Shown here one piece after another: positions 45,152 to 45,388 of a DNA stretch of 45,388 bases (the stretch's first letter is position 1; each line of letters opens with the position of its first letter). The notes under the pieces were generated by a model. It was not told where the DNA came from and searched no databases. It saw only the letters and a program-made list of their open reading frames with translations. Both the position numbers and the translations under genes were made by a program. The DNA comes from Gracilibacillus lacisalsi DSM 19029 (GTDB lineage: Bacteria; Bacillota; Bacilli; Bacillales; Amphibacillaceae), in contig NZ_KB898664.1 in NCBI RefSeq assembly GCF_000377765.1, forward strand, positions 1 through 45,388, in the 5' to 3' direction.

Positions 45152-45388
45152 TTGAAAGATAATGACTACAAGCCGAAGCAATTACTAACGAAAAGGGAAA
45201 GAGAAGTATTTGAGCTACTAGTACAGGACAAAACAACAAAGGAAATCGCCCAAGAGTTATTTATTTCGCAAAAAACTGTGAGGAATCATATCTCAAATGT
45301 AATGCAGTATAATTACGAACTGAATGAGAATTATTCAAGTAATAAAAATGTTACATTTTTAATAATTTTTTTGAAAAAAGTTGTATAA
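45152..45388 (+). pseudogene. gerE: gerE, 3' end replaced (likely split by an intervening element)
   Basis: GerE is the last transcription factor of the mother-cell line and controls late spore coat genes; it is normally about 74 residues. Here residues 1-52 are normal: [20 protein letters not shown], then the LuxR-type helix-turn-helix through [12 protein letters not shown]. From codon 53 (45308) the sequence turns into AT-rich DNA encoding 26 unrelated residues (YNYELNENYSSNKN onward). The missing part is the end of the domain and the dimer helix (usually [15 protein letters not shown]). The normal end is not found in another frame, so this is not a frameshift. TTG start, AAGGAGGGG site and sigma-K promoter are intact. 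It is best read as the 5' exon at the edge of an inserted element. Confidence 0.8.

Follow-up and report, generated by a model that had tools for sequence, protein, structure and literature searches.

A 21.6-kb inovirus-like element with its own large serine recombinase lies within the sporulation gene gerE of Gracilibacillus lacisalsi

The window analysed here, the whole stretch of 45,388 nucleotides, comprises bases 1–45388 of contig C3 (377,458 bases) in the Gracilibacillus lacisalsi DSM 19029 genome, which is assembled in 44 contigs. Close to its right end lies an interrupted gerE, a gene required at a late stage of sporulation. The gene starts at a TTG codon at 45152, directly downstream of the sdh genes and thus in the standard place that a preliminary description of this DNA had assigned to it, and its frame is normal for 49 codons (45152–45297, + strand), all of host sequence. 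The same description had the gene cut after codon 52, at about 45308. A normal 5′ part that is then cut is indeed present, but the boundary has to be moved: the last host codon is 49, the exchange lies within the hexamer CAAATG at 45294–45299, and codons 50–52 as read in the window (V-M-Q) are element DNA, not host gerE. The attachment site of the element resembles gerE (TAATGCAG in the element versus CCATGCAG in the gene). From its left end at 45298 the element runs on the + strand to 45388, where a 100-N scaffold gap (C3:45389–45488) begins immediately past the window end. Since only 91 bases separate the junction from this gap, the window could not contain the GerE C-terminus, which had rightly been reported as missing from it.

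The 3′ part of gerE is found downstream, as had been anticipated, at C3:67202–67284 (+ strand), together with the attR core; it encodes the expected peptide and has a stop codon at its end. About 21.9 kb lie between the two parts, which share contig and strand. Fused at the common CAAATG, they give an intact 74-amino-acid GerE with a TTG start and a seamless frame. When this joined protein was searched against the genome, two matches were obtained at E≤1e-13, the better being the 5′ part itself (codons 1–52) and the second, which is not among the matches listed, presumably a 237-amino-acid LuxR-type protein; judging from sister genomes, a full-length gerE would be expected near 1e-42 with this query. 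The genome holds 11 matches to PF00196, and the ten besides gerE lie in frames of 196–237 amino acids, none of them gerE-sized. Neither the joined-GerE search at E≤1e-13 nor the PF00196 search therefore found a second intact gerE in the genome, a possibility that the preliminary description had kept in mind.

Directly past the N run, at C3:45489–45672 (+ strand; L014:690–873), the right end of the element is fused to its left end. This attP junction was recognised by its identity to both element ends, each of which it matches over 95 bases (on the right, 89 plus the 6-base core), and positions 45294–45388, the final 95 bases of the window, reappear in it after the gap. The element, and hence the excised circle, measures 21,624 bp. 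We attribute the two exact 95-bp identities to a fork in a k=95 de Bruijn graph where attL meets attP; the SPAdes settings used at JGI presumably include k=95. The presence of the attP junction in the assembly means that reads most likely came from excised circles, and the element most likely does excise as a circle. An identical attP junction, which gives no timing, would also result from tandem copies or from induction in vegetative cells. The joined-GerE search found no attB junction (a full-length gerE) in the assembly, from which this edge of about 184 bp could have been dropped, and a search for element-type cores found none beyond the two known copies. The 100-N gap at the end of the window and the 100-bp repeat flanking it could also suggest contigs misjoined at a repeat, the assembly error against which the preliminary description had cautioned. 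However, the attL/attP fork at k=95 accounts for both gap and repeat, and a like junction occurs in ten other genomes of the family, including the single-contig G023 and G117, so that such an artefact is very unlikely indeed and retains almost no probability. In these ten genomes the 5′ part of gerE ends at codon 51–53 of the match, and in eight of them both element ends could be aligned.

The attL site (45270–45325, + strand) consists of a host left half and an element right half, with the half-site ATTACGAAC at 45312–45320, and comparison with attR yields CAAATG (45294–45299, + strand) as the short repeat common to both junctions that had been predicted. We compared attL and attR in 11 pairs (G000, G023, G035, G007, G008, G117, G133, G138, G139, Lederbergia L099 and Sporolactobacillus L107), leaving out loci in which either end was missing. 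The runs common to the two sites intersect solely at a dinucleotide AA, gerE nucleotides 145–146 in codon 49, in a set less independent than its number because G138 and G139 are near-duplicates. From this comparison the crossover most likely takes place at AA 45296–45297 (+ strand). Around this AA, attP forms an imperfect inverted repeat (16/24 in the G. lacisalsi element and 12–22/24 across the set), a score reached by 0 to 2.3% of 2000 shuffled attP arms; the joined attB scores 7–10/24, below attP.

The sequence between the two gerE parts, all on the + strand, begins after the attP junction with an XRE regulator, an M78 peptidase and an unnamed 223-amino-acid protein (C3:45720–47602). A small-ORF search added a candidate directionality factor of 52 amino acids (C3:49722–49880), which is followed by a Prim-Pol/D5 primase-helicase of 736 amino acids (C3:50327–52537). 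A putative structural block (C3:53696–58995) comprises short proteins with a single transmembrane (TM) segment, a 354-amino-acid protein with a signal-like N-terminus, a 491-amino-acid FN3 protein and a 149-amino-acid multi-TM protein. Then come a Zot-like ATPase of 208 amino acids (C3:59994–60620), an SLT transglycosylase (C3:61328–61990), a small serine recombinase (C3:62261–62800), a LexA-like box identified by consensus match (C3:62814–62827), a large serine recombinase (LSR) of 501 amino acids (C3:62881–64386) and, up to the attR region, a type IIG-like protein of 886 amino acids with HSDR_N, N6-methylase and specificity regions (C3:64448–67108). Among element ORFs of at least 70 amino acids there is one large and one small serine recombinase; PHROG and PADLOC matches on the cargo were taken as labels only. 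The proposal of a skin-like intervening element in gerE, with a large serine recombinase gene next to the 3′ part, is thus borne out by a 21,624-bp element that carries such a gene and separates two parts that join in frame.

The LSR contains the Resolvase, Recombinase and Zn_ribbon_recom domains, all three typical of large serine recombinases, and matches a PHROG integrase family at 1e-105. Among the 159 family genomes, matches to it at E≤1e-40 occur in 14, and 11 of them reach at least 54% identity. Of the 159, 140 have an intact gerE and 11 a split one, two have it cut by a contig end (G132, G135), and in six it was not clearly found (G038, G039, G040, G126, G115, G116); a split gerE and an LSR of ≥54% identity coincide exactly, in the same 11 genomes. 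Of the other three matches, that in G140 is a partial gene, that in G109 a remnant with stops and that in G102 a relative at 27%. Ten of the 11 LSR frames are intact, while that of G025 is broken into two frames, with pieces of 81% and 53%, on the strand opposite gerE; G025, G007, G138 and G145 have the two gerE parts on separate contigs. Cargoes differ among the gerE-splitting elements.

The association extends beyond the family. A class sample of 398 genomes contains 19 genomes, besides that of G. lacisalsi, with LSR matches at E≤1e-60. Their 21 loci were scored for gerE 3′ parts only, which occur within the 1.5-kb LSR flank at 13 loci (13 genomes) and are absent at seven, and at locus L159 the contig ends in sequence resembling a 3′ part. 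The 19 named LSR loci, at least eight of which belong to genomes already in the family and class counts, show a 3′ part in 14 cases, a 5′ part only in two, an intact gerE in one and no gerE in two. Among 32 IMG/VR loci, nine have a gerE 3′ part; its lack in the others says little, because many of them stop just past the recombinase. Hosts of the LSR include Gracilibacillus suaedae, G. halophilus, Amphibacillus jilinensis, A. marinus, Virgibacillus chiguensis and Halobacillus litoralis, as well as Lederbergia, Heyndrickxia, Terribacillus, Evansella, Metabacillus and Sporolactobacillus.

Some further loci show other arrangements at gerE. Downstream of an intact gerE, G109 (L083:1320–3910) carries a recombinase remnant interrupted by stops and, beyond it, another gerE 3′ end that has the same terminator; the arrangement suggests that gerE was repaired by back-copying of the 3′ end and that the element decayed afterwards. 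In G136 (L082:3384–3605 and 15389–15550), an intact gerE is preceded, at a distance of 12 kb, by a gerE 5′ fragment of codons 1–54, and there is no LSR of this type at E≤1e-40; perhaps another element entered the same site and left the gene whole. The contigs of G132 and G135 (L090, L091, L092; genus g36, as Terribacillus G133) stop inside gerE at codons 49–51, the integration site, again with no LSR of this type at E≤1e-40, and these ends perhaps reflect other elements or mixed forms. Genome G145 (L097) carries the title Roseburia sp. 1XD42-34, which is probably a wrong label: it falls in genus g38, that of Virgibacillus chiguensis, and its recombinase is nearly the same.

Inoviruses form filamentous virions with single-stranded DNA. 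Roux et al. (PMC6813254) name as inovirus features a pI/Zot-type ATPase, with a C- or N-terminal TM segment, and single-TM structural proteins of 30–90 amino acids. In the G. lacisalsi element, Kyte-Doolittle analysis gives eight single-TM proteins of 45–87 amino acids, for which a structural role is putative; a ninth was called at 59 amino acids, has 93 in the sisters and possibly uses a non-standard start here. Two of the small membrane proteins are near-copies, a third is related, and a like segment occurs near the C-terminus of the 491-amino-acid FN3 protein. The ATPase itself scores 17.5 bits against PF05707, below the cut-off of 20.3, and no TM segment was detected in its 208 amino acids by Kyte-Doolittle. 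In an alignment, all ten ATPases including this one match Zot at E≤0.01 (best 3e-9), and the copy of L118 reaches 21.7 bits, above the cut-off; a fold prediction drew on nine similar sequences only and gave a mean pLDDT of 47.5. We use the term inovirus-like because the ATPase has no predicted TM segment and a Zot score below the cut-off, the element is 21.6 kb long and it has a primase, not a Rep, and because the name inovirus stands for a filamentous single-stranded DNA virion, which would here be a putative feature. Judged by gene content, then, it is an inovirus-like prophage with phage-like replication and virion-type genes, and it may make filamentous virions.

Five split genomes (G000, G023, G035, G007, G008) have a common Prim-Pol/D5 primase, 75–97% identical to that of the G. 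lacisalsi element. These five inovirus-like elements also have in common a Zot-like ATPase (82–99%; the G007 copy is cut at a contig end) and, in one order, most of a series of small membrane proteins. In the comparison made, the ends of the G. lacisalsi element hold genes without counterpart in the four sisters, namely the XRE/M78 pair (the M78 protein being PDC-M69B-like) and the 223-amino-acid protein on the left and the 886-amino-acid protein on the right; these ends resemble exchangeable defence slots. In the other split elements, the stretches examined yielded neither a zot nor a primase gene of this kind. Ten proteins scanned from G117 and G133 include no match to a virion family, and those matched are a helicase, an FtsK/SpoIIIE-like protein, two regulators and a restriction endonuclease, while six of six scanned G139 proteins match PHROGs without a structural label, one of them also matching a DNA methyltransferase. 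In G117 (L072:7128–8108), the 10-kb gerE element, with its FtsK/SpoIIIE-like protein and helicase and no virion gene in four scanned proteins, might be a mobilisable island.

Small TM proteins, an FN3 protein, a protein of the 149-amino-acid type and a Zot-like ATPase recur in similar order in inovirus-like plasmids and phages. The ATPase of the G. lacisalsi element is 82% identical to that of pSK37042 and 59% to that of L. sphaericus pLG, both circular plasmids carrying the inovirus-like module, and 34% to that of Moorella phage MCACPph1, a 20-kb record with this distant ATPase relative and few further matches, on which we found no literature. The module is also present in IMG/VR contigs of 10–14 kb (L112–L118), where L118 has a Rep_1 replication protein in place of the Prim-Pol/D5 enzyme. 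Neither the LSR nor the candidate factor occurs in the examined stretches of L112–L118, pSK37042 and MCACPph1. In a recombinase tree of 34 rows, a single clade (100/99) unites the five inovirus-like elements. Locus L106 (Bacillaceae bacterium Marseille-Q3522) shares with them the primase, some of the small coat-like proteins and the left-end genes, with no Zot in the stretch examined, and its partial recombinase belongs to another supported branch. Given this different clade, the recombinase cassette may have joined the inovirus-like lineage repeatedly.

A search for small ORFs common to elements of different cargo returned a single family, which is our candidate for the directionality (excision) factor of the LSR. 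Its members are mostly 44–64 amino acids long, with a basic N-terminus and a pattern near [FY]G[TDS]....E..F..A..PYF. They are present in all eight elements followed end to end (G000, G023, G035, G007 on two contigs, G008, G117, G133, G139) and in the examined part of G145, with a 26-amino-acid remnant in G025. Five of the 19 named loci (L099, L103, L105, L106, L107, of which L103 is G133 and L105 is G025) and eight of the 32 IMG/VR loci have the candidate, and it was not found in the remaining 14 and 24 LSR loci, where mostly 10 kb or less upstream of the LSR was covered; L112–L118, L151 and L173 likewise gave none. In seven of the 21 class-sample loci it ends 15–153 bp before the recombinase. 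The family has no match in Pfam, and its PHROG matches, phrog_14553 at 1e-6 (L122) and phrog_14915, are labelled unknown function; the G. lacisalsi copy reaches only E 0.057, to another unknown-function family. With duplicates and the G025 remnant excluded, 15 of 20 copies of the candidate have the motif GTCC-N14-CATA upstream, versus 1 of 4000 base shuffles, a count inflated by the relatedness of the copies. The −10 element of sigma-E and sigma-K promoters resembles CATA, while GTCC fits neither −35 consensus.

The recombinase may be under a different control. Scored against the Bacillus LexA box consensus, a LexA-like box with 12–13 of 14 matches lies 57–79 bp before the LSR start in all five inovirus-like elements, directly followed by ATAATT in three of them; 0–0.5% of their shuffled upstream regions reach the score. 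Such a box would add an excision route in response to DNA damage. It is not general to the LSR group, an idea that we rejected since only 9 of 36 upstream regions (a selection from the LSR loci, those with fewer than 120 bases upstream excluded) reach 12/14, compared with 26 of 7200 shuffles. The box is present in the five inovirus-like elements, G025, Evansella, Sporolactobacillus and L121, and absent at 12/14 upstream of the LSR in G117, G133, G138, G139 and G145. A sigma-E site before the LSR was also rejected, the best scores of the sigma-E scan being scattered across different positions. By eye, G117, Metabacillus L109 and B. methanolicus L108 show an attP half-site-like TACCAATTGCAAA (or similar) just before the recombinase start, possibly for self-regulation of the integrase.

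A split gerE is not in itself new, having been known since 2017, and the precedent that the preliminary description could only recall is real: it is gin, a 28.6-kb element of Bacillus cereus ATCC10987 located in gerE (Abe et al. 2017, PMC5595907). According to that paper, gin excision is controlled by sporulation, takes place in the mother cell and is not affected by mitomycin C, and gin encodes the serine recombinases GirA, GirB and GirC and a 42-amino-acid excision factor, GirX, in a region that includes an ImmR/ImmA-like pair. The two elements share the gerE target, a probable AA crossover, a large serine recombinase and a composite GerE of 74 amino acids. The gin attachment sites share 9 bp at gerE nucleotides 138–146, and the predicted cut at the 3′ diadenine falls on nucleotides 145–146, the same two bases at which the shared runs intersect here. 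To the very small excision protein of gin, GirX, the candidate of about 50 amino acids may be the counterpart here; by description the two are alike in size and in their XRE and M78 neighbours. In contrast, gin as described there has no phage genes, whereas the G. lacisalsi element has phage-like replication and virion-type genes; gin has three serine recombinases rather than one large and one small (ORFs ≥70 amino acids); and gin is insensitive to mitomycin C, while a LexA-like box precedes the LSR here.

Other prophages are also found at gerE. The gin paper mentions one in B. glycinifermentans, and in IMG/VR prophages of about 38–41 kb the gerE 3′ end directly follows an LSR 49–53% identical to ours (nine loci). 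One with a gerE 3′ part, L123, carries the tailed-phage genes Dit, tail endopeptidase, tail spike and endolysin, unlike the inovirus-like G. lacisalsi element. In genes other than gerE, the prophages or prophage-like elements SPbeta in spsM and skin in sigK (B. subtilis) and vfbin (B. weihenstephanensis) also split a sporulation gene and encode the serine recombinase that restores it, as the same source relates (PMC5595907). In-frame joining, an element-encoded serine recombinase, matching att sites and a circle junction, which are among the marks of skin-, gin- and SPbeta-type elements, were found here, together with a candidate directionality factor. Among the literature matches listed, by title and abstract opening, none has an inovirus-like element in gerE, and split gerE is treated solely in the gin paper.

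Mechanistically, a temperate inovirus-like element of 21.6 kb would have integrated at gerE codon 49 by means of its own LSR, through recombination of attP with attB at the AA dinucleotide. A small directionality factor would let the LSR carry out the reverse reaction, releasing the circle and restoring the normal 74-amino-acid gerE; by analogy with published gin, restoration would take place in the sporulating mother cell. We consider such reversible, factor-assisted excision of an LSR-integrated inovirus-like element highly probable, and a sporulation-timed excision in the mother cell may be expected from the gin analogy.

An ordinary temperate prophage could instead use gerE as its attB and excise on induction only, uncoordinated with sporulation, so that spores of lysogens would be gerE-defective save for chance excision. 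It is favoured by the LexA-like box that each of the five inovirus-like elements has ahead of its LSR, by the XRE/M78 genes, which are of the kind that controls mobile elements, and by an attP junction in assembly data from an unspecified growth stage. Yet the LSR type and its target recur, in 11 of 159 family genomes and with a gerE 3′ part near the LSR in 13 of 19 class genomes, a purely harmful insertion should be transient whereas the LSR frame is intact in ten of 11, and the published element at the same site, gin, is controlled by sporulation; we therefore regard uncoordinated excision as unlikely. Even less probable, by a wide step, is a decayed insertion in which gerE is lost for good and sporulation is poor: the genome has no intact gerE elsewhere, and in the related G025 gerE is split and the LSR broken into two frames, but the LSR, the att sites and the two gerE parts are all intact in G. 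lacisalsi, and the excised-circle junction was assembled.

Beyond this preferred reading of a reversibly integrated inovirus-like element, we tentatively suggest, at somewhat less than even odds, that a filamentous-phage lineage acquired a portable gerE-targeting cassette (the LSR, att sites with an AA core and the factor of about 50 amino acids) that is also carried by tailed phages and non-phage islands. In the inovirus-like version, LexA and DNA damage would control the integrase and the GTCC-N14-CATA signal, in sporulation, the factor, giving the element two exits, phage release and gene restoration, with the factor family, related to PHROGs 14553 and 14915, as the switch.

New are the inovirus-like vehicle, the repeated use of gerE as a target across Bacilli, the family put forward as candidate factor and a possible control by DNA damage. 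Taken globally, gerE appears as a recurrent docking site across Bacilli and not as a curiosity of B. cereus, the range of elements that intervene in sporulation genes is extended to inovirus-like prophages, and a candidate directionality factor family is offered for this group of LSRs. Inoviruses in the well-known cases leave their host alive, and the locus makes a case for asking whether integration into a spore gene is parasitism, tolerance or regulation.
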